32,768 bases of DNA from a virus. Below the pieces are notes generated by a model, which did no database searches, had not been told where the DNA came from, and was given only the letters and a program-made list of their open reading frames with translations. Numbering within the stretch: the first letter of the stretch is position 1; each line of letters begins with the position of its first letter. The stretch covers positions 1 through 32,768 of the IMG/VR virus record IMGVR_UViG_3300025138_000185. One strand, written 5' to 3'. Of this stretch, positions 4,040-21,752 are shown piece by piece. The translations under genes and the position numbers were made by a program.

Positions 4040-4618
4040 TTAACTATTCCTTGCACTTTCTGACCAAACTGTGCTTGCAGCGGCCTTTTTGAATTTTTGT
4101 ACGGGAAGAAACAATGCAATATCCCATTCGTTTGCGTCTATTTTTACAAAATTTGATTTCACTTGAGTATACAGATACCTTTTCAAACAAGGCTTAATCA
4201 TATTATATTTAGACAGACTTTTTAGGATATTGTAAGACATTGCCAATTTTGTTTTGGAATTATATTTTTTATCTGTAGTGATGAGTGTGAGGGCGTCCAT
4301 TATCATTACTCTATTTCTAGGAGAAACGTAATGCAAATTGATTCCTATGAATCCGCCCTTTGCAGGTTCTACCATGAATATTAATGGAAATTCATCATAA
4401 TATTCTAATTTCTTTTTGTGTTTTGGATCGTATGAATAACAATACATCATCCCAGCCGTGGGCATAGATGCTGCTCTATCAGACGCACCTATGAGTTTTT
4501 GTCTGTTGATCCTAGTGTCGCGTACCTTTTTGCGAAACCATTCTCTAGCTGCGGTCGTATTGGGTTTGACACCCTTTGCCGCTAATCTTTTTAATAGTGG
4601 TGTAAAATTTACTGACAT
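4040..4618 (-). CDS. Conserved phage protein of unknown role, gp2-like by position only
   Basis: A 192-residue basic protein. The N-terminus is Lys/Arg-rich (LLKRLAAKGVKPN, REWFRKKVRDTRINRQ). A central beta-rich section follows with YDPKHKKKLEYYDEFPLIF and GGFIGINLHYVSPRNR. The end is helical with Tyr/Lys-rich segments and EWDIALFLPVQKF. I recall similar small proteins in marine T4-like phages but cannot assign a function from motifs. In T4, gene 2 (DNA end protector) lies beside gene 4, and this gene adjoins the gp4-like gene with a TAATG stop-start overlap, so a gp2-like role is possible. The basic charge would suit DNA binding. Sequence evidence for gp2 is lacking. Confidence 0.7.
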   Translation of the reverse strand: MSVNFTPLLKRLAAKGVKPNTTAAREWFRKKVRDTRINRQKLIGASDRAASMPTAGMMYCYSYDPKHKKKLEYYDEFPLIFMVEPAKGGFIGINLHYVSPRNRVMIMDALTLITTDKKYNSKTKLAMSYNILKSLSKYNMIKPCLKRYLYTQVKSNFVKIDANEWDIALFLPVQKFKKAAASTVWSESARNS

Positions 4619-5061
4619 TATCTTCCTACATGATCCTCTGTTACAATTTTAAATTCCCATCCCCTATCTTTGCAAAATTCTTCTGCATGTTTCCATTTCG
4701 CTTCGTTGACGCTCCATGTTTTCATTTCTTGCAAATATCTGGGGGTAATTTTTGTTTTCTTTTTTGGCGCTTTACATTCTCTTTTTGGCTTTACTTCTAC
4801 AACTATTGTTTTTTGCGTTCCATCTTTTCCATTTATTGTCATTAAAAAATCAGGATAATATCGGTGCATTTTTCTATCAATTGGAGAGATATATGGTATA
4901 ACTAATTCTTCACTTGACCATTTCACTACGTTTAAATTTGTGTCGCAATATTTCATAAATCGACGTTCCCACATTGAACGATACTGAATGTTGTGTATTT
5001 TTCCTATGTATTTTTCCGGATGGATTGGATTATATTTTCCTTTATATGTAAATCTTTTCAT
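4618..5061 (-). CDS. 4: gp4-like head completion protein with PD-(D/E)xK nuclease motif
   Basis: A 147-residue protein, close to T4 gp4 in size (about 150). T4 gp4 joins the filled head near the portal and is needed before tail attachment. Visible nuclease-like residues are E32 in MWERRFMKY, P70-D71 in YYPDF, and E89-V-K91 in VVEVKPK, giving the PD...ExK core of restriction-type and TnsA-type nucleases. A Lys-rich stretch (about 97-107) follows and may contact DNA. It is the first gene of the minus-strand operon, next to the divergent promoter region. The ribosome binding site is weak (a T8 stretch lies just upstream of ATG). Confidence 0.75.
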   Translation of the reverse strand: MKRFTYKGKYNPIHPEKYIGKIHNIQYRSMWERRFMKYCDTNLNVVKWSSEELVIPYISPIDRKMHRYYPDFLMTINGKDGTQKTIVVEVKPKRECKAPKKKTKITPRYLQEMKTWSVNEAKWKHAEEFCKDRGWEFKIVTEDHVGR

Positions 5062-6066: not shown

Positions 6067-7332
6067 ATGTTTAATAAAATTCCAAATATATTATATGATG
6101 TGGACTTGACAAATAAACCCGTTCTTGTTAAGAATATTTTTAGATCTGCTCATACAATAGATTCTTATAGAAAAAATCCAAATTTTTATTATTATCACAC
6201 GTTGAAGCAGCATGAAACTATAGAAGATCTTGCAGAATACTATTATGAAAACGCCAGATTGTCGTGGGTAATTTTGTTGTATAATGAAATCAGAGATATT
6301 TATTCGGAATTGCCTAGAGATCATAATACTTTTTTAAGATATGTCGAAAGTAAATATTATCCAGAAAATGTATTGAATTTTGAAAGAATTCAATCGTTGC
6401 CGAGAGTGCCGTTAAATGGCCAATATGATGGTGAACTAATTTATGCAAAAGATACTAATAAATCTTTGCAGTGGAACAGCTCATCAATCGGCTGGGTTGA
6501 TGTTGGAATGGGTGTCCCTACGCCTGCCCCACAGACATATACGGTAGAACCAAATTCGCCGGATAATGCAACTGGTTGGATGGTTTCAGGCAAAAATTTG
6601 TTGAGAACTAAGAATCCACAATTAACACTGACCAAAGGGGTCACATATAAGTTTAATGTCTATGGTTCTTCCAATCAATCTTTTTATATTACAACAGACG
6701 CAGATGTAAATTCTGATGGTTCTCTAAAAAATTGGAAACCGGACTATAGTTATGGTAAATATAATGTAGGAGTTGTAAATGAACCCATTATAGATGTCAA
6801 TGGAAACGAAATAGGCCAGACATTAACTTTTACTGTTCCTAAAAATGTTCCAAATAGATTATATTATAACTCAACTTCCAGCCCGACAATGCGCGGAATA
6901 ATCTCACTGAAAGATATTAAAATAGATTCTTATGTCCAAACAAATGATATAAGTAGTTTGCAAAGATCGAATGGCCGGGTTATGGGCAAAATTGCAAAAG
7001 TTGAAGACGATTTTTATTGTTGGAATGGTAAGTATTTTGAAAATAATGTAGATAGTTTTATATCAGGATGGGATTTGTTGCCAAGAGGTATTAGAGAACT
7101 AACAATGAAAATTTCTAATATGACGCCGCATAAATTTACACATATCATAGATGAATATGAGATTTCTTCTCAAACATATTCTTTAATGACTCCAGACAAG
7201 CGCGATGCGTTCGTCATGCAATCTAAATATGAGTATGAAGAAGAATTGAATGAAAAAAATAGAAGAATTAAAATTATGAAACCAGCATTGCTGCAGGATT
7301 TTTTGAAGGATTGGGAAAAGGTCGTTAAATAA
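6067..7332 (+). CDS. 53: gp53-like baseplate wedge protein with an inserted beta-sandwich domain
   Basis: Starting at ATG 6067 (GGCGGGGT upstream) gives 421 residues. An in-frame ATG at 6046 lies inside gp48 and is less likely. The N-terminal ~90 residues match gp53: they start with a short IPNILYD segment and lead to YYYHTLKQHETIEDLAEYYY and LSWVILLYNEI, a LysM-like unit. T4 gp53 has 196 residues. The extra length is mainly residues ~157-286, a Thr/Asn-rich beta domain with the pattern of cupredoxin-like domains (TLTKGVTYKFNV, SFYITTDAD, TVPKNVPNRLYY). The C-terminal part (SGWDLLPRGIRELT onward) looks like the rest of gp53 and ends in a charged helix. gp53 strengthens contacts between neighbouring wedges. 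The stop overlaps the next start (TAATG). Confidence 0.75.
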   Translation: MFNKIPNILYDVDLTNKPVLVKNIFRSAHTIDSYRKNPNFYYYHTLKQHETIEDLAEYYYENARLSWVILLYNEIRDIYSELPRDHNTFLRYVESKYYPENVLNFERIQSLPRVPLNGQYDGELIYAKDTNKSLQWNSSSIGWVDVGMGVPTPAPQTYTVEPNSPDNATGWMVSGKNLLRTKNPQLTLTKGVTYKFNVYGSSNQSFYITTDADVNSDGSLKNWKPDYSYGKYNVGVVNEPIIDVNGNEIGQTLTFTVPKNVPNRLYYNSTSSPTMRGIISLKDIKIDSYVQTNDISSLQRSNGRVMGKIAKVEDDFYCWNGKYFENNVDSFISGWDLLPRGIRELTMKISNMTPHKFTHIIDEYEISSQTYSLMTPDKRDAFVMQSKYEYEEELNEKNRRIKIMKPALLQDFLKDWEKVVK

Positions 7333-8663
7333 TGGATATAACTTCAAAATCTGGTGATTATGAATTACTAGAATTAAAAATAACATCTCATAACGGATTC
7401 GAATTAGATATTAAAAATGGTAATACGTTCACATCATTGATGGTGTATGAAGATTTATTTTCTCCCACAATGACAGCTTCCCTAACTCTTTCGGATCCGG
7501 AAGGTATTTTAAATTTTATGCCAATAATCGGCCAAGAAAAAGTCGATTTATCTTTTGTCACTGCGGGATTAGAAGAACCTATTACCAAGAAATTCATAAT
7601 TAGTAAAATTACTGATTTGGAAAGTGATGCCGCTATCCAGAATTACACATTAGAGTTGGCATCTGTGGATCTGATTTCCAACTACGAAGAAAAAATTTCA
7701 GAATATTTTGAGGGAAGTGCTACTGATATCGCCCAGAAATGTTGGAAGAGATTATCTTCAGACAAAGATTTTGAATTTGAGCCTAGTAGTGATTTATATG
7801 AGAATGAAATAGGAATCATTATACCAAATATGACACCGATGCGAGCATGTTCTTACTTGACAGAGCGCGCTTTCCATGATACATATAAAAGTTCTTCGTA
7901 TGTATTTTTTGAAAGTTCCAAATCATATGTTATGAAACCTTTGGAAATGTTGACTCAATCTGAACCAAAAAATAAATTCAATCTTGGCAGATATAAAAAC
8001 GCAGGCCTCGGCGATGAAGGAAGTAGTCCGGTAGATTCTAATATGGAAAACAAAAAAGCAATAACATATAGTTTCTTATCCAATTTTAAAGTGCTTGACA
8101 ATATAGCTCATGGGTTGTATAATTCTCAGCTGACAACAATAGATTTTGTGACTAGAACGAAAAAAATTCATGATCATTCTTTTTGGGAAAATTCTAAAGA
8201 TTACAAATATTTGAATCAAGCAGAAGGTATGGATGAAAATAAAGATCCGGATGGACCTATATTTGATATCACAGGACAGGGAATACAATATAAACCAAAA
8301 ACTGAATACCTTTTACCAGAAATTGAAGTCAAGGCTGGACGGCCAATGTTTAATCAGGAAAAAATATATTTACAGAGAAAATTTTTCATGCAACTTATTA
8401 ACAATATAAAATGTTCATTGACGGTCTATGGCGACAGTGACTTGTCAGTCGGCGACACAGTGGAGCTTTCGCTGCCCATATTTACCCGATTAGATTTGAA
8501 AGAAGAATGGGAGGATAAATATTACAGTGGTAAATATTTAATATGTGCAATTCGACATAGGTTGAGTGGGTCGAGATATGTTTCTGATATGGAATTGGTG
8601 AAAGACAGTTTCAATGATGAATTGCCGGCACCTATTCCAGTTATTGAAGGCGTACAAAAATGA
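7332..8663 (+). CDS. 27: gp27-like baseplate hub protein
   Basis: A 443-residue protein (T4 gp27: 391). Position directly before the gp5-like spike matches the partner gene in hub assembly. The N-terminal barrel has SLMVYEDLFSPTMTASLTLS and LNFMPIIGQEKVDLSF. A middle helical section has GSATDIAQKCWKRL and MRACSYLTERAF. A C-terminal barrel has YGDSDLSVGDTVELSLP and YSGKYLICAIRHRL. These strand patterns fit the hub fold shared by gp27, Mu gp44 and the VgrG N-terminus. A trimer of gp27 would form the socket on the gp5 spike and the start of the tail tube. The gene overlaps its neighbours at both ends (TAATG, ATGA), which favours coupled translation. Confidence 0.75.
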   Translation: MDITSKSGDYELLELKITSHNGFELDIKNGNTFTSLMVYEDLFSPTMTASLTLSDPEGILNFMPIIGQEKVDLSFVTAGLEEPITKKFIISKITDLESDAAIQNYTLELASVDLISNYEEKISEYFEGSATDIAQKCWKRLSSDKDFEFEPSSDLYENEIGIIIPNMTPMRACSYLTERAFHDTYKSSSYVFFESSKSYVMKPLEMLTQSEPKNKFNLGRYKNAGLGDEGSSPVDSNMENKKAITYSFLSNFKVLDNIAHGLYNSQLTTIDFVTRTKKIHDHSFWENSKDYKYLNQAEGMDENKDPDGPIFDITGQGIQYKPKTEYLLPEIEVKAGRPMFNQEKIYLQRKFFMQLINNIKCSLTVYGDSDLSVGDTVELSLPIFTRLDLKEEWEDKYYSGKYLICAIRHRLSGSRYVSDMELVKDSFNDELPAPIPVIEGVQK

Positions 8664-10978
8664 ATATGTTTATGGGTAAAGATGGACTCACTTGGTGGCA
8701 AGGAATTATTGAAGATGTCAATGATCCAGAGGCTCTGGGCAGAGTCCGTGTTAGAATTTTTGGTTATCATACAGACGACCGTGATAAAATTCCCACAGAA
8801 AATTTGCCTTGGGCCTCCCCATTAATGCCAATCACCAGTGCTTCTATGGCGGGTATTGGGCAATCCCCTACTGGGGCATTAGCTGGGTCTTGGGTAATGG
8901 GATTTTTTCGAGATGGAGTTAATGCCCAAGACCCGATTATCTGGGGCACAATCAATGGCAAGCCTGGAAGCTCCGGCGTAGGAGCGCCCGATGGAAGTTA
9001 TCCTAGTAATCAAGAACTTTTGCCTGGCGCATCCGTAACAGGTGAATCGGACGTAAATAAACTTGCAACTGGCGCAGGCGTACCAGAACCATCAACGTCC
9101 CCTGCAAGTTCTGATAATTCTTCTGGAGATGGTGAGCGATCTGTCGATCAATCAGGTACTCCATCAGACGAGATAAACAAAACTCGACTTACTAAAATTA
9201 CAACGAAGAACGGTAAAAGTACATATGTCGCAACAATTTTTGCGAAAAATTTTCAAAACTTTATAACCGAATTTGAAAAAACCCCTGCTCCAAATCACCC
9301 CGATGGATATACCATTTACAGTCTTGGTGGATATGTGCATAGAAAATCTGCGGCTGGTAATGGCAAGTGGTCATACCACGCCTCTGGCGCATCTATAGAT
9401 ATTAATCCTGCTGAGAATCCATTTGGCAAAACTTTTATTACAGATATGCCAAAAAATACCTCTGCGATGGCAAAGAAATACGGTCTGGGGTGGGGTGGCA
9501 ATTGGACAAGTTCAAAAGACGCAATGCATTTTAGTATGGCCACTGGCGAGCTCGGAACCGTAAAATTAAAAAGAAACGGAATTGTACCAGACCCCGATAC
9601 GGGGAGTCAAGATAGTCCATCCACTGATGCAAATACTCCCAACCCATCTTCTAAAAGTGGGTCTGCTCCTGTCAGTCCACCATCACAAACCGATTCATCT
9701 ACATCTAATGGATATGACAACCCCACTCAAGCACCTGTGCCGAACCAATCAGCGAAACCAGAATTAAATGTTGAGGAATGGACGCTCGGAACTGACTATG
9801 CGATTTCTGATCTAGTGCGCGCCCCAAAATTAACCGGCAATCAAATTGGTAGTCAACCTCCATACACATATAGAACTGGTATCATCGCAGCAGCGGCTGC
9901 AATGGAATGTAGTGCGTTAGACTTCGGTACTGTCATGTCCTTTGAAATGGGTGGTAGATGGGACGCTCGTATAAAGGGCCCAACAACCGAAGCATGGGGC
10001 CAACATAGAGGAATTATCCAGTTTGGAGAAATACAGGCAAAAACATATGGTGTTGATTTTAGTACGGAACAAACAGCGATTGATACTCAACTTGGACCTA
10101 ACGGCGCGGTTGTAAAATTCTTACGGGCTCACGGTGTAAAAAATGGTATGGGTAGATTGCAAATTTATTCTGCGATTAATGCCGGTGGTGTTGGAGAAAA
10201 ATATTATAATAGGACAGATGCAAACAATGGTGGAGCTCCCGGCACAGTCAGAGAAAAAGTCGAAAGAATGGGCCCGTGGGAAAACAATGCCAGAAAATTG
10301 TTAAATAGTAAAGACGATGGTGCATATGTAGAACAAAAAGTTTATCGTGCGACAGAAGGTGGAAAATCTTCTGTAAATGGTGTGGGCCCCTCTAGCTCAA
10401 ATTTGAAAGACGGAACAGTAACGTGGGAGGTTGCTCCAGAAGAATTTCAAGAATCGTCTAAGAACACTCAAAACGCGGCACAGGAGGCTGCAGGGAAAAC
10501 GACTACAGATGGGTATTCTACTGCACCAACGCAATCTGGTGGTGCCTCAAAGGGTCCCAAACCCTATTCTGTAAAAGAAAAGATGAAAACACAAATAACA
10601 ACTGAATTATTCCAAGAGCCCGGCAACCCATATGCGGCAGAATATCCACACAACAAAGTATTGTTTACGGAGTCTGGTCATATTCAAGAATTTGATGACA
10701 CTCCTAATGCAGAAAGAATACATACTTATCATAGGACAGGCACTTTTGAAGAAATTCATCCAGATGGTACTAAAGTGATTAAAGTGGTAAGAAATAATTA
10801 TGAGTTAATTTTAGGCGATGATAGTATATACGTCAAAGGGACAATGAACTTAGTTGTTGATGCTGATGTAAATGTAAAAATTGCTGGCAAAGTTAACATA
10901 AATGTGGGCGGCACTATAGATTCAAATAGCGGTGGTACAACCACAATCAAGGCCCCAAAAATCGACTTAAATCCGTAG
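8660..10978 (+). CDS. 5: gp5-like spike protein with M15 peptidase and transglycosylase-like domains
   Basis: A 772-residue protein (T4 gp5: 575). Residues ~1-110 form a gp5/VgrG-type OB-fold (GIIEDVNDPEALGRVRVRIF, then DPIIWGTINGKPG). After a Ser/Pro/Asp linker, residues ~175-305 carry the M15 (VanY-like) peptidase set: S238, H240, G243, D247, D287 and H290 (SYHASGASID ... DAMHF), so zinc and catalytic residues appear intact. After another linker, residues ~385-560 look like a lysozyme-like/transglycosylase domain with candidate catalytic E429 (VMSFEMGGRWD) and AWGQHRGIIQFGE. The C-terminus (~655-772) is the spike: VKGTMNLVVDADVNVKI and following short Val/Gly repeats fit a gp5C beta-helix. 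The T4 lysozyme-type domain is absent. It starts in an ATGA overlap with gp27. Confidence 0.85.
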   Translation: MNMFMGKDGLTWWQGIIEDVNDPEALGRVRVRIFGYHTDDRDKIPTENLPWASPLMPITSASMAGIGQSPTGALAGSWVMGFFRDGVNAQDPIIWGTINGKPGSSGVGAPDGSYPSNQELLPGASVTGESDVNKLATGAGVPEPSTSPASSDNSSGDGERSVDQSGTPSDEINKTRLTKITTKNGKSTYVATIFAKNFQNFITEFEKTPAPNHPDGYTIYSLGGYVHRKSAAGNGKWSYHASGASIDINPAENPFGKTFITDMPKNTSAMAKKYGLGWGGNWTSSKDAMHFSMATGELGTVKLKRNGIVPDPDTGSQDSPSTDANTPNPSSKSGSAPVSPPSQTDSSTSNGYDNPTQAPVPNQSAKPELNVEEWTLGTDYAISDLVRAPKLTGNQIGSQPPYTYRTGIIAAAAAMECSALDFGTVMSFEMGGRWDARIKGPTTEAWGQHRGIIQFGEIQAKTYGVDFSTEQTAIDTQLGPNGAVVKFLRAHGVKNGMGRLQIYSAINAGGVGEKYYNRTDANNGGAPGTVREKVERMGPWENNARKLLNSKDDGAYVEQKVYRATEGGKSSVNGVGPSSSNLKDGTVTWEVAPEEFQESSKNTQNAAQEAAGKTTTDGYSTAPTQSGGASKGPKPYSVKEKMKTQITTELFQEPGNPYAAEYPHNKVLFTESGHIQEFDDTPNAERIHTYHRTGTFEEIHPDGTKVIKVVRNNYELILGDDSIYVKGTMNLVVDADVNVKIAGKVNINVGGTIDSNSGGTTTIKAPKIDLNP

Positions 10979-10987
10979 GAAAGAAAT

Positions 10988-11464
10988 ATGACAAAGCATA
11001 ACAATTTAATAACTAATAGAGATTTTGACCTTAAAATGACAAAAGTTCCTACAGGACTTTCGAATAGTGGTGATATTGTTATGAAATTTGACAGGCCGCA
11101 ACTCAATAGGTTTCCATCTATTGAGCAGAGTATCGCAAATATTTTATTGACTTCAAAAAAAGAACGAAGATTTGATCGACTCTTTGGAGGAAATTTGTAT
11201 GAGAGTTTATTTGAATTGAGTACGACTCTGGATGGTTCTCCAAAATTCAACTCTGCGCCTGCGATAAATATAAAACAAAGTATTATGTTAGCATTGAATA
11301 ATTATGAGCCAAGAATTGTGGTATTAAATGTCAGTCTGGGCGAAAGTGAAAAACTTAAAAATTCTGCTATAGATAGAAATGAAATTAATGTGACCATAGA
11401 ATATATGATACCTCCTGTTCAGGAAAAGATAACATACACTTTAGGAATCAAAAGAGTAAAATAA
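10988..11464 (+). CDS. 25: gp25-like baseplate wedge protein
   Basis: A 158-residue protein (T4 gp25: 132) of the GPW_gp25 family. It has the segment around FPSIEQSIANILLTSKKERR and the hallmark EPR motif in NYEPRIVVLNVSL, which belongs to the conserved wedge core also present in type VI secretion TssE. gp25 binds the gp6 dimer and helps trigger sheath contraction. It lies directly before gp6, with ATG of gp6 two bases after its stop. An AGGAAAG ribosome binding site overlaps the gp5 stop. Confidence 0.85.
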   Translation: MTKHNNLITNRDFDLKMTKVPTGLSNSGDIVMKFDRPQLNRFPSIEQSIANILLTSKKERRFDRLFGGNLYESLFELSTTLDGSPKFNSAPAINIKQSIMLALNNYEPRIVVLNVSLGESEKLKNSAIDRNEINVTIEYMIPPVQEKITYTLGIKRVK

Positions 11465-11465
11465 A

Positions 11466-13595
11466 ATGGCAAAAAACATTCAAATTTCGGAATTAGATTT
11501 CGCAAATATAAAATCAAATATTAAACAATATATGAAAAGTGATCCAACTTTTGCAGATTATGATTTTGAGGGTTCTGGCCTGTCAACTCTTACAGACATT
11601 TTAAGCTATAACACATACTATAATTCATTTTATTTGAATATGATATCAAATGAAATGTTTTTAGATACTGCGCGACTGCGCGATAATGTTGTTGCAAAGG
11701 CAAAAATGCTGGGATATACACCAACATCCAACAAATCTTCGACGTGTAACATTACTTGTACTTTTGAAATAATTTCCGATTCCCCAGACAATGCAAAATA
11801 TAACGACATAACCATTGATAGAAATTATGTTTTTTCAAAAAGAAATTCTCAGACAAACGACGAATATAAATTTACTCCGACTATTACACGAGTCGTAAAT
11901 CGTGCATATCCACCGGTCGCTCAAGCAAATAATAAATGGAAACATGTATATGAAATTTTTGACTTAGAACTTATTCAAGGGATAGCAGTGACAGAAAATT
12001 ATTATGTCGATCTTGCAGATCCAAATCAAAAATTTATATTATCAAATGTTAATGTGGATACATCAACCATTCGCGTATTTGTTATTCCAAATGTTGAGAG
12101 CTCGATAACAGCAGAATATAAGGTAAATACTGATACAATGTCTCTGAATAGTTTGTCCGAAACTTTCTTTTTGCAAGAATCTTATGATGGCCGATATGAA
12201 ATTATTTTTGGAGATGGTGTTTTGGGTAAGAGCGTCGATAGTGGAAACATTGTGACGATAGATTATCTTACAACATTTGGCGCCGAGGCAAATGGTATGA
12301 CCGGAGATATGAGATTGATCTCCACTAAAGATAATGTCCGGGCATCTTCCTTGCTACAAAATTTGTCTGTTATTGGAACGACTGGCGGTGGCGCGGATAA
12401 AGAATCTATAGATTCTATCAAATTCTATGCTCCCAGAACTTTTGAGGGTCAAAATCGTGCGGTTACTGCAAGAGATTACATGACTATAATTCCAAAAATT
12501 TATCCACAAGCATCATCAATCAATGTCTGGGGCGGAGAGGACAATGTTCCTGCTCAATATGGGACAGTGTTTCTTAGTATCAAACCAAACTCTGGATATT
12601 ATCTATCATTACAAGATAAAAATTTCATCCGTGCAAAATTGATTTCAGACTATTCGGTATTAACTCTGCGGCCGGAAATTGTAGATCCCGATTTTATCAA
12701 ATTAAAAATAAATACACAAGTTAAATTTGATAATGAGTCTACCTTATTGAGTTCTGCAAATTTACTATCATCAGTAAAAAACACTATCACTGATTATAAT
12801 GCAAAATTTTTACAAGATTTCAACAGTTATTTTAGATATTCACAATTTCTTGCAGCGATTGACCAGACAGACGAATCTATTACAAATAACATCACAACGA
12901 TTACTATGATAAATGAAAAAGACGTTATTTTAAATAATTCGGCAAACTACACTTTTAATTTTAGTAATGCAATCTTGCCCAACTCAATATCATCTTTAGG
13001 ATTTGATCTTACAGGATATGAAGGAACATATTATGCAGATGATGATGGTTTGGGTAAAATTAGATTTTACCAGTTTAATTCTGCATCTGTAAAAATATAC
13101 ACCTCTGTTTCTTCTGGTACTATTAATTACGGCACAGGAGAAATTGTAATTCCAAATCTCAATATATCTTCTATCATAGGTAATAATGTTTTCGGGATAA
13201 CTGCAACACCACAATCAATGGATATCTTCCCTGTAAGAAATCAAATAATTGATATAGATTTGTCGGAATTATCTATATCAATGTTAGAAGATACCGATGA
13301 GTTTAACGAAAATTATAATATTTCGACTCAAAGAGTTGTTGTGTCCAGAAACATTTCGACATCATATAATGACAGCGTTTCCAGAGTCACCAGCGGCACT
13401 AGAACAGCTTCAATAACCAGAGTTTATGCGGATGGTCCCTCTTCTGGATCTTCTAGTGGTGCAACATCATCTAGTAGTGGATCTTCTGGTGGTACAACAT
13501 CGTCTAGTAGCGGATATTCGGGAGGCAGTTCATCGAGTGGTAGTTCATCGAGTGGTAGTTCATCGAGTGGTAGTTCATCAGGTGGCGGATATTAA
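11466..13595 (+). CDS. 6: gp6-like baseplate wedge protein with Ser/Gly repeat tail
   Basis: A 709-residue protein (T4 gp6: 660). The N-terminus has ISELDFANIKSNIKQYM and DFEGSGLSTLTDILSYNTYY, then NEMFLDTARLRDNVVAKAK, the pattern of Baseplate_J/gp6 proteins. The middle keeps VTARDYMTIIPKIYP and a beta-rich section. In the baseplate, gp6 dimers form the inner ring that joins the wedges and binds gp25 and gp7. Residues from ~657 to the end are almost only Ser, Gly and Thr, encoded by tandem DNA repeats. This tail is not part of T4 gp6 and is probably disordered. Confidence 0.85.
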   Translation: MAKNIQISELDFANIKSNIKQYMKSDPTFADYDFEGSGLSTLTDILSYNTYYNSFYLNMISNEMFLDTARLRDNVVAKAKMLGYTPTSNKSSTCNITCTFEIISDSPDNAKYNDITIDRNYVFSKRNSQTNDEYKFTPTITRVVNRAYPPVAQANNKWKHVYEIFDLELIQGIAVTENYYVDLADPNQKFILSNVNVDTSTIRVFVIPNVESSITAEYKVNTDTMSLNSLSETFFLQESYDGRYEIIFGDGVLGKSVDSGNIVTIDYLTTFGAEANGMTGDMRLISTKDNVRASSLLQNLSVIGTTGGGADKESIDSIKFYAPRTFEGQNRAVTARDYMTIIPKIYPQASSINVWGGEDNVPAQYGTVFLSIKPNSGYYLSLQDKNFIRAKLISDYSVLTLRPEIVDPDFIKLKINTQVKFDNESTLLSSANLLSSVKNTITDYNAKFLQDFNSYFRYSQFLAAIDQTDESITNNITTITMINEKDVILNNSANYTFNFSNAILPNSISSLGFDLTGYEGTYYADDDGLGKIRFYQFNSASVKIYTSVSSGTINYGTGEIVIPNLNISSIIGNNVFGITATPQSMDIFPVRNQIIDIDLSELSISMLEDTDEFNENYNISTQRVVVSRNISTSYNDSVSRVTSGTRTASITRVYADGPSSGSSSGATSSSSGSSGGTTSSSSGYSGGSSSSGSSSSGSSSSGSSSGGGY
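13446..13511 (+). repeat. Two 33-bp imperfect tandem repeats in the gp6 3' end
   Basis: Two copies (13446-13478 and 13479-13511) of a 33-base unit beginning GGATCTTCT differ at four positions. Both encode GSSSG- or GSSGG-type Ser/Gly/Thr segments. They keep the reading frame. Confidence 0.8.
13527..13586 (+). repeat. 15-bp tandem repeat (AGTTCATCGAGTGGT) in the gp6 3' end
   Basis: Three identical 15-base units (13527-13541, 13542-13556, 13557-13571) are followed by one diverged copy (13572-13586). Each encodes SSSSG. The identical copies suggest recent slippage, and a 15-base unit changes length without shifting the frame. Confidence 0.9.
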
Positions 13596-13597
13596 TA

Positions 13598-16500
13598 ATG
13601 GAAAATAATATTAAAAATATTGCCTCACATATAAAGGCTCAACTTCCGAATTATATTTCTTCGGATAATGATTATAGTACGTTTGTAAAATTTTTAGAAT
13701 TATATTATGAGTGGTTATCAAAATCTGATGGCACATCTGGCGTGACGAATTCTATAACAGAATATGCAGATATAGACAATACTTTGGATATTTTTTCTAA
13801 TCTTTTCAAAAATGAACTTGCTGCAAGTTTTCCAAATGTAACAAAGTTGAAAAGTTTGCCTCGGCAATATTCCGATAATATACAGGCCGACCAAGCAGGA
13901 GAAAGTGCCGAGTCTGCTATACAAACTTTGTATGATCAGGAATTCTTGGGAGATGGCAACACAAGTATTTACAAACTAAATTATTTCAACCCATTTTATT
14001 ATTTCGGCGAAACAGACGCAACAAGCATTGTATCCGAAGTGATAGTTTATGAAAATCCAGACACGGTCGGTGATCGCGGTTCCGGCACCACATTGCAGTC
14101 ATTCGTTGATAGTTTGACTCCGCCTGGATATGATGCAACTACTGGATTGATATCTACTGGTGATTATTCTAAATTGAGTGAAGCTTCTGCATCTGTTGCT
14201 GGATATACTTTAACTGACAATGTAATATCATTCTTAGATTCTAATGGCAATCCTAGTAATATTACCCTCGATCATATTATAAAAGTTCGATTTGTAATAA
14301 AAACATATACAGATGCTGCCCTTTCGCCCGGCACCACTGATGAATATAATAATTTGGTCGATTCTGTTAAGATAGAAAAAACCTCATACGAAAATCAATC
14401 CCAGTTTATGAAGTTTATGAAAGAATTTTATCAGTCTAAAGGTTCTGAAAAGTCGTATGAATTTTTGTTTCATGCTCTTTTTAATGAAGATATTGAAATT
14501 TATTATCCTAAAAATCACATTTTCCGCGCAAGCAACAACGAATGGAACACGACAAAATCTGTAAGAGCAGAGCCATATGTCCCGACAAGCATTCAGCCTA
14601 AAGTTACTTCTCCATATGAAATAGTTGGAAATATTTCTGGTGCCACAGCGGTCATAGAATATTATAAAGATATTAAAATAGGGACTTATAGCGTTAGAGA
14701 ATATTTTCTGGGCAGTATAACTGGCACTTTCACAAGTAGAGAAATGGTTACTATATCTCAAACAGATAATACAAAATATGAAGAAAAGTTATATGATTGT
14801 ATCACCGGATTTGATATTGTCAATGGTGGCAGCAACTATTCTCAAAATCAACCAGTGGAATTATCTGATACATATGTCGGATCTGGCTCGGGATTTTCTG
14901 CAAATATATCTCATACTTCTTCGGGCGCCGTAGATACTATAAAATATGTCAATAGAGGCGATGGATATATCACCGGCGAAGAGCTGCGATTTAATGAGTA
15001 TGGAACTTTTGGTACTGGCGCCGCAGCAGATATTTTAGAAACAAGTTATGATACTGAAAATTATGATATAACATTTGTACAAAATCCAACTTCATTGGAT
15101 GCTACCGGAGAATGGAATTTAGGTTTAGGAACAGATAGTAATGGCAATCCGTACACATATGATCTAACAGCTAAAGATATCAATGTAAAAATAGAAAATA
15201 TTGATATTCTGTCTCACAATGTTTTCGGGTTATTTGACTTTGAAAACGTATCGGATGTAGGCCGTATGATAGATAAGGTTGATTTTGCAGGAGAATATCA
15301 AGATTTAAAAAATAATATGACCGCACTGACTAACAACACCACTTTAATTTCTAACATTGATCCTACCAAACAAATTATAAATTTAAATGAAGGCGAAGGG
15401 ACAGAGACAAGATATGTAGAAAATTTAGATTTTTCTGTTGCTAGTGTTGATGTAAATGGAAAGATTCTGTCGATAAGTTATGATACACCTAATGGAAACC
15501 CACAAGGAAGTCTCACAGCGGCCACAGTAAATTTGTCTGCTCAAGAACCCTATCTAAAAAATAACAGAGGATTTGGCGCAGCATTTGATCTTAATATTGC
15601 CGACAATTTATTGCAAACTATCTCAATCAATACAGTCTCAGGTGGTGGACAATTATATGGAATAGGTGATAAACTCATAATTAAGGGGGAACAACTTCCT
15701 TATGGAGTCACTGGAACTCACGATATAGAAATCACGGTCGATTCTGTTTCTGGTGGTGAAATTGTAAATGACATAGGACTCAATACAATTCTAGACGACA
15801 ATCCACTTGACGGATATCTTACAAACACTGTTAAGGGTACTGGCGCTATATGGGATGTAGATACTACACAAGGGACTTACAAAAATGCGGTAGCGATATT
15901 ATTAGATGGTAGTTCTGTTACGATAGATTATAAAGTAAATGAGTTCTTTATTATTCCCGGCAATTTGTTTAGTGGTGGAATATCACCTATCAATGATGTA
16001 GGAATTGTAATTACATCGGTGGATGATTTGGGAAGAATTGATGATTATCGGATAGTAGGAAACCCTATCGGTGGAGAAATATCGACATTTACCGTCACTG
16101 GTACTCTTGGACCCAGCGGTGATATTGCTATGCCTAATGCTTTCAATAGAATTGAAATATATTCAAGTGATATTAATATATCTGACATTACACCTCTAGC
16201 ACCAGAAACAGTAAAGGGAAGTAATGCACAGTTTACTATCTCTAAATCGGGCTCAGAATATCAAGTTTGGCCGTGTTCTGACAACAACAGGGGCAATAAT
16301 TACACTGTAGGAACTACACTATTGGTGAAAGGTTCTAAACTCGATGGGATTGATGGTACAAATGATCTCGTTCTTACCGTAGATAGGGTCACTTCAACTG
16401 GGGGAATATTATCACTTTCCATAACTGGTAGTCCTATCGCCGCAAATGGATTTATATCCACAAACTTTACAGAGACTAAAATTGGTTTTGGGGCAACTTT

Positions 16501-19500
16501 TGATATATCGGTTGTCAATGGTGTCTATACTAACTCTTTGACTATTGTTGATGGAGGTACAGATTACGCTGTCGGACAACCTTTATTTTTTGATGGATCA
16601 GATCTGGTGTTTCAATGGTTAAAAGACAATTTTAAAAATAAATCATTTCAGACTGGCAATAATTCTTTGGCTACAAATATTGGATATGTTAGAATTGATG
16701 ACATTGGAAAAATATTTGAAGAATCTGCAATTGATTCTTCTGGATATACTGTTGATTTTTGGTATTTTAGAAAATCTCAAAAATTAGGGACGGGTTCTTC
16801 CTCTGCAATATGGTCTATAGATGATTATATAACAGGTCAAAGTACAATTGGATTGTATCAAGAATCTGATGGATCTTTGACGCTAAAAAATGTCCGACCA
16901 GGCGCTACGACATCAGTATGTACTTCGTCAATATTACCTTTTGGTGAGTGGCATCATATTGCTGTACAAATTTATGATGCTGGCGTGGAATTGATTATAA
17001 ATGGAACTATGGTGTCATCTAGTACCGCATCCGATTGGTATGCACATGATGAATATGGATTGCAATCAGAGGATGTAACATCTTTTGTCGATACGGCAGA
17101 TAAGTGGACGAATGATAGTGGTACTGGCATGTCTACATGGAATCCGGGCACTTCAACTGAAGATACATTAGATCCCCATAAGGGCGTTGATATTACAATA
17201 ACTCGAACTATTACTAGACAGGCAGATGATGCCGGCGGGGTTCCACAAGATATCCCATCAATGACAGGTATAATCGTAACTCAAAAATTAAAGACAGATG
17301 AATATGAAATTTCATCGGACGGAACCTCCGTAATCTTTAAGACTTCATTATTGTCTAACGCGACTTCTATAAATTTTAAATATTATCCAAGAAAACAAAA
17401 TTTTTACATTGGGGCCCACCAAACATTAGCGGCCGAGTACACTATAGATGATTTTACATTGGGATTCTTTGGCACTTTTAGATTCACAAAAGGTGTGAGA
17501 TATAATGAACCTGCGGGCGGCGCTAGTGGAATTTATCAGGATAATGGAACAGTAAATTCTTTAAGTAGTTTGGGATTTAGCCCGATTTATGTCAATCCTA
17601 TTCCATCATCTACACAGATAGGTGAAACGTCCCCAATAAAAACTTCTTTTGTTGCTGATGGTTCTTCGGCAAGTTATAATCTTTATTATGATACTGCTAT
17701 AAATTCGGTTGATGTGGATGTAACCAAAACCAATACAGATTTGTTGGGCAGGACAACTACAACAACTACTCGACTAGAACATACTGACTTCACAGCAACT
17801 AATGGAACAACTATAATTTTCTCGCCGGTGTTAGAAGAAGGATCTGCTGTTACAATCACCACATATCCACCATTGGGAAATGATAATATTGGATTTCTTA
17901 TCTATGACAATCAATATCCTGTTGTTTCTGCTAGAAATAGAATCCTTTTAAGAAAATTGAACGATAGTGGCATATCTTCGACCTACACTTTGCCTAATAC
18001 GTTGTCTTTAAATGTTTCTTGGAATTCAAAACCGAAGTCTCCGATAAAAACAGTTAATTTAATAACTGGTGGGTATGGATATAAAAAATTCCCATCTGCA
18101 AACATAAGAAATAGATCTCGCTCTTATAATTCTACAGGGTCTTTGGGATTTATGATCGGAGAGGGTGAAAACATTGGTAGTATCAAAAAAATAGATATCA
18201 TGGAAAGTTCCTTTCAAACTGAAAAGAACGGCCACGGCATAAATTATATTTGGGACGAAGGAACGCCCGGCCCAACATTAAATCTTACCAATCAGGGCGA
18301 TGGTACTGCTGTGGTAAACGTCTTGACAGGGCCTTTGTGTATTAGTTCGGGCGAATTTTTAAATGACGAAGGATTTGTGTCGCATGACAATAGAATTCAT
18401 GATGGGTATTTGTGGCAAAATTATTCGTATGTAATTAAAGTTGGAATGTATGTTGATGAATGGAGGAAAATAGTCAAAAAAGTTATTCATCCATCGGGAC
18501 TAATGATGTTTGGAGAATATACCAGCACAAGTAAGGCAAATGTAAGAAGAGGTGCGGGTATTGCATGGACAGAATTATTATATGAAATCATAAAAAATGT
18601 TAATATGAAAGTCAAAAATATGGATGGCCTAGGACAATGGGTTTACACTCCAACTGACACATATTGGTATCCAACTGAAAATAGACAAGACACAAACTAT
18701 CTCAACTCTCAGGGACATAAACTGATATATGATAATAGACAAGGATTTATAGATTCTGGCGTTACCACCGATGGAGTTCTAGCATATGACGGGGTGGGTA
18801 CGGGCGAAATTTCTGATGATACTGTTGGAGCGGCCTCAGTAGATAATGGTTCTGGTAGATATGCTCTTCTCACAGAAACCGGCACCGGAGATTCGGTAGT
18901 GGATGCAACTGCATGGCATCAAGTCAGAAGAATTGCAATGAACTTCAAAGACGCATATGGTAAAAATTATTCTCATTTTTATAAAAAAGACACAATTCAT
19001 AATACGATAACGATTTATGATGTATCTGATCAAGAACTGCATAATAATGAATGGATAAAAACACGGCCTTGGGGAAAATATAAAATATTGTCTAGTGAGG
19101 TCTTTGAAAATTCAAACGATGAGTATGTTGTTTTTACTGTGTCGTTTGTTGCGGGATATAGAGAAATGCCCACACACACCGGATATCCAAACAACAAAGT
19201 GGAATTTAGATGGGATAATATCTTTCGTGGTAATGTTGACAGAAGTGCCAATCATTGGATAGGTTCTGTGGATAATGGTGCTAATCCTCGCGATGGAAAA
19301 ATGATTATAAATATTTCTGGAAGATTTAATAACAACATAGATGGGGATATTCCCACACTTCACACTACCTACAGATCATTAGAAAGGTTTAAATTTTATT
19401 TTAGAACTGTATATCCTTGGCAGAATTTGTCGACCCTATTCAGTCCGGCAGAAGAGATAAAAGATTCACCTTATACAACTATGAGAATACCAACAAAAAA

Positions 19501-19993
19501 TAATGTTACTATGGGATATCTCCCAACATTGGCACAAAATAATACTTGGTTTAATATGCCGGTAGAATTGGGAAATACAACTTGGACTGCAAATACAGAC
19601 GGCACAGACCATGAATGGCGAGATACTACCATTTCAGAAATTGTAACTAAATCTGATAGAAAGTATCGTGCTGTCTTAGATTCTGAAATAAAGATTAGAC
19701 CAATTTATTTAGTAATTAGTGAAGAGACACCAGATATCGGTCTCAGAAATAGAATGGGTCCAACAAATTTATCGGTTGAACGTGCAAAATTTAATGAAAA
19801 ACTACAGTCTGGGTCGGATTATAACGATGATGTGTTAGATAAAAACACTTTCGAAAAATTCATATCGCCAGGTACTATGAATGACAAGTCTAATTTCGCA
19901 TCCGAGGCGACTTTGGTACAATATACGACAACAAACATACCAACATCTTTAGATGATTTAACCGAAATCTTAGAAACCGCGACATTCGACTAA
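13598..19993 (+). CDS. 7: Giant gp7-like baseplate wedge protein with LamG-like and beta-repeat domains
   Basis: A 2131-residue protein, about twice T4 gp7 (1032). The N-terminus (FVKFLELYYEWLSKS, then LKSLPRQYSDN) and residues ~268-309 (FMKFMKEFYQSKGSEKSYEF, then EIYYPKNHIF) fit wedge proteins of gp7 type in marine T4-like phages. Residues ~370-1030 hold beta repeats with Gly-Gly/Gly-x-x-Tyr-x-Val-Gly units. Residues ~1047-1147 and ~1267-1308 form a LamG/concanavalin-like domain (VDFWYFRKS, FGEWHHIAVQIYD, FYIGAHQ), split by ~120 residues. Residues ~1604-1650 contain YSYVIKVGMYVDEWRKIVKK and HPSGLMMFGEY, common in large phage baseplate/fibre proteins. gp7 starts wedge assembly and links the inner and outer baseplate. 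The gp7 name rests on N-terminal pattern and gene order between gp6 and gp8. Confidence 0.7.
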   Translation: MENNIKNIASHIKAQLPNYISSDNDYSTFVKFLELYYEWLSKSDGTSGVTNSITEYADIDNTLDIFSNLFKNELAASFPNVTKLKSLPRQYSDNIQADQAGESAESAIQTLYDQEFLGDGNTSIYKLNYFNPFYYFGETDATSIVSEVIVYENPDTVGDRGSGTTLQSFVDSLTPPGYDATTGLISTGDYSKLSEASASVAGYTLTDNVISFLDSNGNPSNITLDHIIKVRFVIKTYTDAALSPGTTDEYNNLVDSVKIEKTSYENQSQFMKFMKEFYQSKGSEKSYEFLFHALFNEDIEIYYPKNHIFRASNNEWNTTKSVRAEPYVPTSIQPKVTSPYEIVGNISGATAVIEYYKDIKIGTYSVREYFLGSITGTFTSREMVTISQTDNTKYEEKLYDCITGFDIVNGGSNYSQNQPVELSDTYVGSGSGFSANISHTSSGAVDTIKYVNRGDGYITGEELRFNEYGTFGTGAAADILETSYDTENYDITFVQNPTSLDATGEWNLGLGTDSNGNPYTYDLTAKDINVKIENIDILSHNVFGLFDFENVSDVGRMIDKVDFAGEYQDLKNNMTALTNNTTLISNIDPTKQIINLNEGEGTETRYVENLDFSVASVDVNGKILSISYDTPNGNPQGSLTAATVNLSAQEPYLKNNRGFGAAFDLNIADNLLQTISINTVSGGGQLYGIGDKLIIKGEQLPYGVTGTHDIEITVDSVSGGEIVNDIGLNTILDDNPLDGYLTNTVKGTGAIWDVDTTQGTYKNAVAILLDGSSVTIDYKVNEFFIIPGNLFSGGISPINDVGIVITSVDDLGRIDDYRIVGNPIGGEISTFTVTGTLGPSGDIAMPNAFNRIEIYSSDINISDITPLAPETVKGSNAQFTISKSGSEYQVWPCSDNNRGNNYTVGTTLLVKGSKLDGIDGTNDLVLTVDRVTSTGGILSLSITGSPIAANGFISTNFTETKIGFGATFDISVVNGVYTNSLTIVDGGTDYAVGQPLFFDGSDLVFQWLKDNFKNKSFQTGNNSLATNIGYVRIDDIGKIFEESAIDSSGYTVDFWYFRKSQKLGTGSSSAIWSIDDYITGQSTIGLYQESDGSLTLKNVRPGATTSVCTSSILPFGEWHHIAVQIYDAGVELIINGTMVSSSTASDWYAHDEYGLQSEDVTSFVDTADKWTNDSGTGMSTWNPGTSTEDTLDPHKGVDITITRTITRQADDAGGVPQDIPSMTGIIVTQKLKTDEYEISSDGTSVIFKTSLLSNATSINFKYYPRKQNFYIGAHQTLAAEYTIDDFTLGFFGTFRFTKGVRYNEPAGGASGIYQDNGTVNSLSSLGFSPIYVNPIPSSTQIGETSPIKTSFVADGSSASYNLYYDTAINSVDVDVTKTNTDLLGRTTTTTTRLEHTDFTATNGTTIIFSPVLEEGSAVTITTYPPLGNDNIGFLIYDNQYPVVSARNRILLRKLNDSGISSTYTLPNTLSLNVSWNSKPKSPIKTVNLITGGYGYKKFPSANIRNRSRSYNSTGSLGFMIGEGENIGSIKKIDIMESSFQTEKNGHGINYIWDEGTPGPTLNLTNQGDGTAVVNVLTGPLCISSGEFLNDEGFVSHDNRIHDGYLWQNYSYVIKVGMYVDEWRKIVKKVIHPSGLMMFGEYTSTSKANVRRGAGIAWTELLYEIIKNVNMKVKNMDGLGQWVYTPTDTYWYPTENRQDTNYLNSQGHKLIYDNRQGFIDSGVTTDGVLAYDGVGTGEISDDTVGAASVDNGSGRYALLTETGTGDSVVDATAWHQVRRIAMNFKDAYGKNYSHFYKKDTIHNTITIYDVSDQELHNNEWIKTRPWGKYKILSSEVFENSNDEYVVFTVSFVAGYREMPTHTGYPNNKVEFRWDNIFRGNVDRSANHWIGSVDNGANPRDGKMIINISGRFNNNIDGDIPTLHTTYRSLERFKFYFRTVYPWQNLSTLFSPAEEIKDSPYTTMRIPTKNNVTMGYLPTLAQNNTWFNMPVELGNTTWTANTDGTDHEWRDTTISEIVTKSDRKYRAVLDSEIKIRPIYLVISEETPDIGLRNRMGPTNLSVERAKFNEKLQSGSDYNDDVLDKNTFEKFISPGTMNDKSNFASEATLVQYTTTNIPTSLDDLTEILETATFD

Positions 19994-20001
19994 AAAAAGA
20001 T

Positions 20002-20009
20002 TATAAATA
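20002..20009 (+). promoter_or_regulatory. T4-type late promoter, TATAAATA, upstream of gp8
   Basis: A perfect late promoter box in the 46-base gap between gp7 and gp8, ending 30 bases before the gp8 ATG at 20040. An AAAAGG-type ribosome binding site lies at about 20027-20032. It would give gp8 and the genes to its right a second transcript start. Confidence 0.75.
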
Positions 20010-20039
20010 TATAAAATTACATACGCAAAAGGTAAAACA

Positions 20040-21752
20040 ATGGCAGCTATTATCACAAATAAACTGAGAATATTTAATGCTCAGGAGTTTTTGCAATCTA
20101 TTAACAGATCTGCACCAAATTGGAAAACAGGAACATCTTATGTACTAGGAGATTCTGTTATAAACAATGGAAATCTTTTCATATGTATAGGTGCGGGTAC
20201 AAGTGTTGGTTCCGGCGATGGGCCTGCTCCAAACTCTGGAGCTATCGTGGATAATACCGCAAATTGGTCACATCAAGGGTTATCAGTATATAATAATCTT
20301 TATATGGCAGTCGGAAAAAATACACCTTGGATCAATGATGCGAATCCGCCCACGCCCGAAGATTCTATCGGTTATGGTTATGCTGTCAAGGCAGAACATA
20401 TTTCGATGAAAAAAGTCGGGGTAAATGATATGACCCTCGCAATCCCAAGAGTCAACTGGAAAACTGGCACTGTCTATACAATGTATGAACACGATGTCGC
20501 AGAAGAAATTATACCCAATTCGTATGTTATAGCTGAAGGCGTAAATCAATATAACGTGTATAAATGTATTAATAACATGACATACACTAATGATAGTGAA
20601 ACTATTATTGAAGTTCCTTCGACCGAAAAACCAAGTCATACAACTGCTGCTTTAGTAGAACAGTCCGATGGTTATATTTGGAAGTATATGTATTCAATTT
20701 CTCTAACAGATTCTTTGAAATTTTTGACTAAAGATTATATTCCAGTAAATAGAATCTCTACAGATCCAAACAACGATCTGTCAAATTTGACATCTGCCGA
20801 TGTTCAGTGGGATATTCAGACCGCAGCCTCTGTTACAGCTGGTGAAATAGACCATGTTAAAATTCTGGCAAATGAGTCAGGAGCGGTGGTTCGTGGTGGA
20901 TTGGGATATCATCCGCAAATCGCGGGTACTGATACAATCGGTACAACTAATCATACTCTTAATGGTTTTGCTGAAGGCAGTGCTGATTATACAGGTTATC
21001 ACCTTATAGCATACGATAGCTCGACTATAGAACAACGAAGAATCACATCTTGGACATTATCTGGTGGAACGGCATCGGTGGTAACAGATGGTGGGGTTTT
21101 CACTCTCGCAGGAACAGATGTTACATATATTATCGCTCCAGGCGTTGATGTGACAGCAACTGGTGGTTCGGGTTTTGCAGCATACGGTCAAGTCACTAAT
21201 GGAAAAGTTTCTAAAATCGTTATCACTAACAAAGGATCTGCATACACTCATATAGATTCTGCGGTTATCACTACAGGAAACATTATACATACAACAGGTG
21301 GTGTTGTCAATGTAAATTCGTGCAAAATAAAACCAATCATTTCGCCCGAACAAGGTCATGGTTTTAACGCAATTGAAGAACTTGGAGGCTATTATATGAT
21401 GATAGCTATGAAATTGGAATATGACGAACAGTCTACTAGATATGATACTTCATCCACGCCCGCTCTTGTAACAGAACCTATGTTTTCAACCAGTGGTTCT
21501 GATTCTGTATTCAGACAAATATCAATAGTCGCAGACCCAGTAGAACATGGCGGAACGATTCCTGCAACCGAAGAATCTATGCGTGGACCAAAACATTTAA
21601 GTTATAATAAATTAGTTGGCGGTGTATCGGGAACTCAAACCACATTCGATGTTGAAGCTGGTTCTGGAAAAATTCTTTATACAGAAAACCGTCAACCTGT
21701 ATCCCGCGCTATAGACCAAATTGAAGATATCAAAGTTGTCTTCGAATTTTAA
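20040..21752 (+). CDS. 8: gp8-like baseplate wedge protein with inserted carbohydrate-binding-like module
   Basis: A 570-residue protein (T4 gp8: 334). Core segments resemble gp8: ITNKLRIFNAQEFL at the start, then YMAVGKNTPW, MTLAIPRVNWKTG, SDGYIWKYMYSIS, FRQISIVADPVEHG, and the end ILYTENRQPVSRAIDQIEDI. gp8 forms a dimer that binds gp7 and gp10 in T4 wedges. Residues ~27-83 are an insert with the W-x-x-G-x-x-Y-x-x-G-D-x-V pattern (WKTGTSYVLGDSV, then LFICIG and ANWSHQG), typical of CBM5/12-like modules. Residues ~271-433 are a second, Gly/Thr-rich beta insert. It has its own late promoter. Confidence 0.85.
   Translation: MAAIITNKLRIFNAQEFLQSINRSAPNWKTGTSYVLGDSVINNGNLFICIGAGTSVGSGDGPAPNSGAIVDNTANWSHQGLSVYNNLYMAVGKNTPWINDANPPTPEDSIGYGYAVKAEHISMKKVGVNDMTLAIPRVNWKTGTVYTMYEHDVAEEIIPNSYVIAEGVNQYNVYKCINNMTYTNDSETIIEVPSTEKPSHTTAALVEQSDGYIWKYMYSISLTDSLKFLTKDYIPVNRISTDPNNDLSNLTSADVQWDIQTAASVTAGEIDHVKILANESGAVVRGGLGYHPQIAGTDTIGTTNHTLNGFAEGSADYTGYHLIAYDSSTIEQRRITSWTLSGGTASVVTDGGVFTLAGTDVTYIIAPGVDVTATGGSGFAAYGQVTNGKVSKIVITNKGSAYTHIDSAVITTGNIIHTTGGVVNVNSCKIKPIISPEQGHGFNAIEELGGYYMMIAMKLEYDEQSTRYDTSSTPALVTEPMFSTSGSDSVFRQISIVADPVEHGGTIPATEESMRGPKHLSYNKLVGGVSGTQTTFDVEAGSGKILYTENRQPVSRAIDQIEDIKVVFEF

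Follow-up and report, generated by a model that had tools for sequence, protein, structure and literature searches.

Spike gene and baseplate neighborhood

The window analyzed here is a 32,768-nucleotide stretch of viral DNA (IMG/VR record IMGVR_UViG_3300025138_000185, positions 1 to 32,768). On its plus strand, an open reading frame at 8660–10978 begins with ATG and encodes a 772-aa T4 gp5-type baseplate central spike with two predicted peptidoglycan-hydrolase domains. Upstream lies a gene for a tail/hub protein (7332–8663, plus strand; phrog_350), and downstream are two plus-strand baseplate wedge genes, one gp25-like (10988–11464; GPW_gp25, E 3e-10) and one gp6-like (11466–13595; phrog_219, E 8e-160), so that the spike gene occupies a baseplate neighborhood between a hub-like gene and gp25/gp6. 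By tblastn, the nearest relatives of the gp6-like protein were in Methylophilales phage Melnitz, Pelagibacter phages Mosig and HTVC008M, and cyanophages. The region at 13598–21752 encodes a baseplate wedge protein of 2131 aa, in which a Laminin_G_3 lectin-like domain was recognized (E 8e-7), and a gp8-like protein that matched CBM_5_12 weakly (E 1e-4). On the minus strand, a protein with a TnsA-like endonuclease N-terminal domain (4618–5061, E 2e-25) is possibly a head-completion nuclease.

The spike ORF matched phrog_430, "baseplate hub subunit and tail lysozyme", at E 1e-90, and T4 gp5 by phmmer at E ~1e-36, with residues 6–116 and the C-terminal spike at ~647–731 aligned. Four parts follow one another along the plus strand: an N-terminal Gp5 OB domain (8660–9073, residues 1–138; PF06714, Gp5_OB, E 9e-20, aligning with T4 gp5 4–123), an M15_4 peptidase domain, a second domain described below, and a C-terminal trimerization/beta-helix region (10595–10975, residues 646–772) recognized by phmmer, in which residues 647–731 matched residues 373–457 of a T4-type gp5 spike chain (i-E 2e-17). 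Pfam gave no Gp5_C or Gp5_trimer_C match in the 772-aa spike itself. Nor did the spike match a T4L-like lysozyme domain, which is also absent from many gp5 relatives; the peptidase and the second domain, which is lytic-transglycosylase-like, stand in its place. A Ser/Pro/Gly-rich linker (9596–9829, residues 313–390) joins these two and is poorly conserved in its middle, with per-block conservation of ~0.2 at residues 321–350 in the alignment of relatives. A preliminary description had called this ORF a tail spike with enzyme domains at residues 170–310 and 380–570; the gp5-type ends bear out that identity, and the limits, nearly right, are now refined to ~176–312 and ~398–548. Its gp5 identity suggests that the protein would take the place of the central spike in the virion.

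M15 peptidase domain

The first enzyme domain (9185–9595, residues 176–312) has the fold of L-Ala-D-Glu and D-Ala-D-Ala peptidases. Peptidase_M15_4 (PF13539) matched residues 233–293 at E 3e-14 in the full protein and E 4e-15 when the domain was excised, and a profile built from a 15-member alignment retrieved Ply500 (2vo9, E 9e-6) from the PDB, along with LysB4 and another L-Ala-D-Glu peptidase. The first zinc-ligand motif, SYHASGASID (H240 to D247, 9377–9400), aligned to SNHNYGVAVD of Ply500, and KDAMHF, which holds the catalytic acid and third zinc ligand (D287 to H290, 9518–9529), aligned to KDYPHF, placing H240, D247, D287, and H290 on the SNHxxGxAxD and KDxxHF zinc/catalytic motifs of that enzyme. 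All four residues were unvarying in the 15-member alignment and in every nonredundant relative covering those sites. The AlphaFold model of the domain (mean pLDDT 83) had as its best solved neighbors in Foldseek Ply500 (2vo9, probability 0.99, E 8e-3), LysB4, and VanX, so that the HxxGxAxD...DxxH motif is present within an M15 fold. Pfam, profile, and fold searches thus all place a hydrolase fold after the OB domain, as the preliminary description had proposed, with the active-site residues that it had named complete. The domain probably performs zinc-dependent cleavage of the stem peptide, by analogy with Ply500 putatively at the L-Ala-D-Glu bond.

Lytic-transglycosylase-like second domain

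Taken alone, the second domain (9851–10303, residues 398–548) had no match in Pfam, PHROG, or NCBIfam, only chance matches in the PDB by phmmer, and within its family SLT_2 was weakly matched by a single member of 71. A profile made from the 71-member homologue alignment identified the solved phage "lytic transglycosidase" 9udh in the PDB (E 9e-8), with the Glu of the 9udh ETG motif aligned over E429. The AlphaFold model has a core with pLDDT mostly 95–98, and Foldseek gave 9udh as its best match (probability 1.00, with a modest E of 9e-3), followed by Slt and MltD; a viral SLT-domain protein was also matched (E 1e-8). Three GH23-like motifs were invariant across all 71 divergent homologues: the predicted catalytic acid E429 in an ES-like motif (9944–9946), the G and Q of the GLMQ-type motif G451-I-I-Q454 (10010–10021), and the N and G of the AYN-type motif N507-A-G509 (10178–10186). 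The earlier proposal of a transglycosylase-like domain with E429 is therefore borne out for residues 380–570 by both profile search and structure prediction, and as judged by alignment the named residues of both enzymes fall on catalytic motifs rather than being displaced. Profile and model support a lysozyme-superfamily lytic transglycosylase fold, and the conserved motifs predict cleavage of the MurNAc-GlcNAc bond through E429.

A tblastn search of the second domain against phage records returned 12 records. Its homologues lie in tape-measure proteins of Rhodobacter and Loktanella phages, in Ruegeria phage 45A6, in two Microcystis phages, and in Rhizobium phage Pasto and Mesorhizobium phage Lo5R7ANS, where the homologue forms the N-terminus of a T7 gp16-like internal virion protein. 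T7 gp16, an internal ejection protein of a podovirus, has an N-terminal lytic transglycosylase, and it resembles the second domain in its E / GxxQF / N-G motif order as well as in the position of the homologues in the T7-like rhizobial phages. It differs in being an internal ejection protein of a podovirus and in its very weak direct similarity: hhalign of the second-domain family to the T7 gp16 family was co-linear with a score of 28.6 and a probability of 23 (reversed control 14.5), weak enough that this link is only suggestive, and hhalign to single T7 gp16 and T4 gp5 sequences gave nothing. A pattern derived from the second-domain family itself found 46 loci in 84,980 species genomes, 44 of them alphaproteobacterial as judged by record title. 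The second domain thus belongs to an unnamed family that also occurs in tape-measure proteins and internal virion proteins of phages of alphaproteobacteria, a distribution suggesting that unrelated tail types with the same hosts have exchanged domains. The two Microcystis phages (L087 and L094) carry this transglycosylase family though the genome loci are nearly all alphaproteobacterial, and their true host, or transfer, may be at issue.

We considered whether catalysis is confined to the M15 domain, the other domain being a module of lysozyme fold with a peptidoglycan-binding or structural role. The lack of a curated family match in the window protein and the modest E-value of the fold match would fit such a module, whereas the invariance of E429, GxxQ, and NxG in 71 of 71 divergent homologues would be unexpected in a binding-only domain, and homologues are placed where T7 gp16 has its transglycosylase; we regard this reading as unlikely. 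Somewhat less probable still is that both domains are active with one of them aimed at another barrier, such as a capsule or surface glycan, or at processing of the spike. The M15_4 family does include carboxypeptidases of varied specificity, and T4 gp5 itself is proteolytically processed, but peptidoglycan is the substrate of the best solved relatives of each domain. Taken together, the evidence from sequence, profile, and fold supports two different lytic domains in one spike protein.

Two-enzyme architecture across relatives

Relatives were gathered by IMG/VR scans and counted as distinct ORFs, the window included and some truncated at their ends. The OB domain, M15 domain, second domain, and C-terminus occurred together, in the same four-part order, in 34 distinct ORFs, and two further ORFs of the dual form were cut at the C-end. 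Another 34 gp5 relatives had the OB domain and C-terminus but neither enzyme domain. In a backbone tree of the OB and C-terminal regions, the dual form was monophyletic: a single branch, supported at 100/99, set it apart, and it required one change. The preliminary description had suggested looking in marine gp5 proteins for either domain alone; two apparent OB+M15-only gp5 proteins (L247 and L254) were rejected as single-domain intermediates because locus ends cut both. On these sequences, the two-enzyme pairing is fixed in one lineage of uncultured marine viruses.

The same relatives bear on the idea that the fusion arose by misassembly or by a recent accident confined to a single contig. 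The GC of the spike gene, ~0.41–0.48 over most of its length versus ~0.30–0.35 in the flanks, would be in keeping with that idea, and may reflect Gly/Ala/Pro-rich coding or transfer. Against it stand the 34 ORFs of one order and one clade and a reading frame free of internal stop codons, and because full-length relatives of 56–86% identity lie on many independent contigs, an assembly chimera is ruled out; misassembly or accident is scarcely credible as an explanation. An endolysin role for the spike protein is also less likely because of its gp5 ends and because two related long records (G002 and G003) carry another M15 ORF of ~160 aa, which is consistent with a distinct endolysin.

When the spike was searched by tblastn against 50,697 phage records, no record covered 80% of the query, and among the phage records listed with either domain, the carrier was in each case a protein other than gp5. 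We found no lysin domain in the gp5 of HTVC008M (350 aa) or Mosig (361 aa). The gp5 of Melnitz resembles the window spike in that its OB domain is joined to an M15-superfamily (VanY-like) peptidase; it differs in that the VanY match is weak, below the Pfam cut-off, the C-terminal spike is encoded by a second ORF overlapping the first, and no transglycosylase was matched. This split into overlapping ORFs, with OB plus a weak VanY-like peptidase followed by the C-terminal spike, was seen in L062, L069, and L073 as well as in Melnitz (L259). In one further gp5 relative (L067:4992–6611), the OB domain is followed by a LysM domain (E 5e-10).

Proposed role and probable host

We are confident, from sequence and model, that the protein is a virion-associated bifunctional peptidoglycan hydrolase, by predicted activity, in the form of a gp5-type spike of a T4-like marine contractile-tailed phage. 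By homology with T4 gp5, the OB domain would seat the spike on the hub and the C-terminal region would trimerize it into a piercing needle. Each chain would bear the M15 peptidase and the transglycosylase-like domain on flexible linkers, and therefore the trimer would deliver three copies of each to a single spot. Sheath contraction would push the spike through the outer membrane, as in T4 (PMC7650644), so that both domains would arrive at the wall together, the zinc peptidase cutting the stem peptide and the transglycosylase-like domain cutting the MurNAc-GlcNAc bond via E429, and would make a local opening through which the tube could pass. Stem-peptide removal and glycan cutting at one place should make that opening faster than either alone. 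We infer the catalysis, the bond specificities, the trimer, and the joint action.

The T4-like marine kin of the window and the alphaproteobacterial kin of the second domain point to a Gram-negative host, probably an alphaproteobacterium. We infer rather than assign this host, because no tRNA genes were found in the window and no isolate carries a two-enzyme gp5. With somewhat less assurance than for the role of the protein itself, we favor the view that a marine T4-like lineage on Gram-negative, probably alphaproteobacterial, hosts turned gp5 into a bifunctional spike able to cut glycan as well as peptide bonds, with an unnamed lytic transglycosylase family supplying its second domain.

Comparison with known systems

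T4 gp5 is a tail-associated lysozyme (PMC7650644; PDB 1k28), and the window spike resembles it in its N-terminal OB domain, enzyme in the middle, C-terminal trimer/beta-helix, and baseplate position; T4 has a single T4L-like lysozyme, whereas the window spike has an M15 peptidase and a transglycosylase-like domain. The two-enzyme idea itself is already known from Gram-positive systems such as diffocin and HydH5. In the diffocin hub-hydrolase CD1368, a transglycosylase stands in tandem with an NlpC/P60 endopeptidase, a "pair of scissors" in its authors' words (PMC11329794). Like the spike, it is a contractile-tail tip protein with a lytic transglycosylase and an endopeptidase, but its enzymes are on a gp27-like hub rather than a gp5-like spike, its peptidase is NlpC/P60, and its target is Gram-positive. 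In phi29, the virion protein gp13 also has two different wall-cutting domains, one of them lysozyme-like. The other is an M23 domain (PMC9662197). HydH5, phi11 Gp49, and CwlP (PMC5380687, PMC3150257) likewise place two different wall-cutting domains in one virion protein, and all four differ from the window spike in folds and tail positions. Bifunctional hydrolases that include a transglycosylase are also spike-delivered by type VI secretion systems as the cargo effectors Tae17 and Tse4 (PMC11796386), though Tae17 is a non-covalent cargo of VgrG and has that of an amidase as its second activity. That domains are shuffled in tail spikes and endolysins is well established (PMC10684548). Our literature search, with most subscription papers outside its reach, found no gp5 spike with two lysins, and what is new here is probably the gp5-spike carrier together with the probable Gram-negative host.

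By the count of a 2017 review, no more than five virion lysins combined two different lytic domains; all came from phages of Gram-positive bacteria, and the review tied such proteins to the thick walls of those hosts (PMC5380687). From a conserved two-enzyme spike in marine T4-like phages, it would follow that the pairing is favored by selection in thin-walled hosts as well. Because no lysin was seen in gp5 of the related Pelagibacter phages, one can also ask by experiment what makes wall-cutting spikes necessary in some T4-like phages and dispensable in others. The spike supplies compact, testable bifunctional lysins, and an unannotated transglycosylase family becomes nameable in many phage virion proteins. 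Other contigs (L064, L251, L252, and L253) encode large proteins in which a close relative of the M15 domain is joined to further endolysin-like segments, including, by eye, a glucosaminidase-like stretch in L253, and reports to date may understate how common two-enzyme proteins are in such phages.
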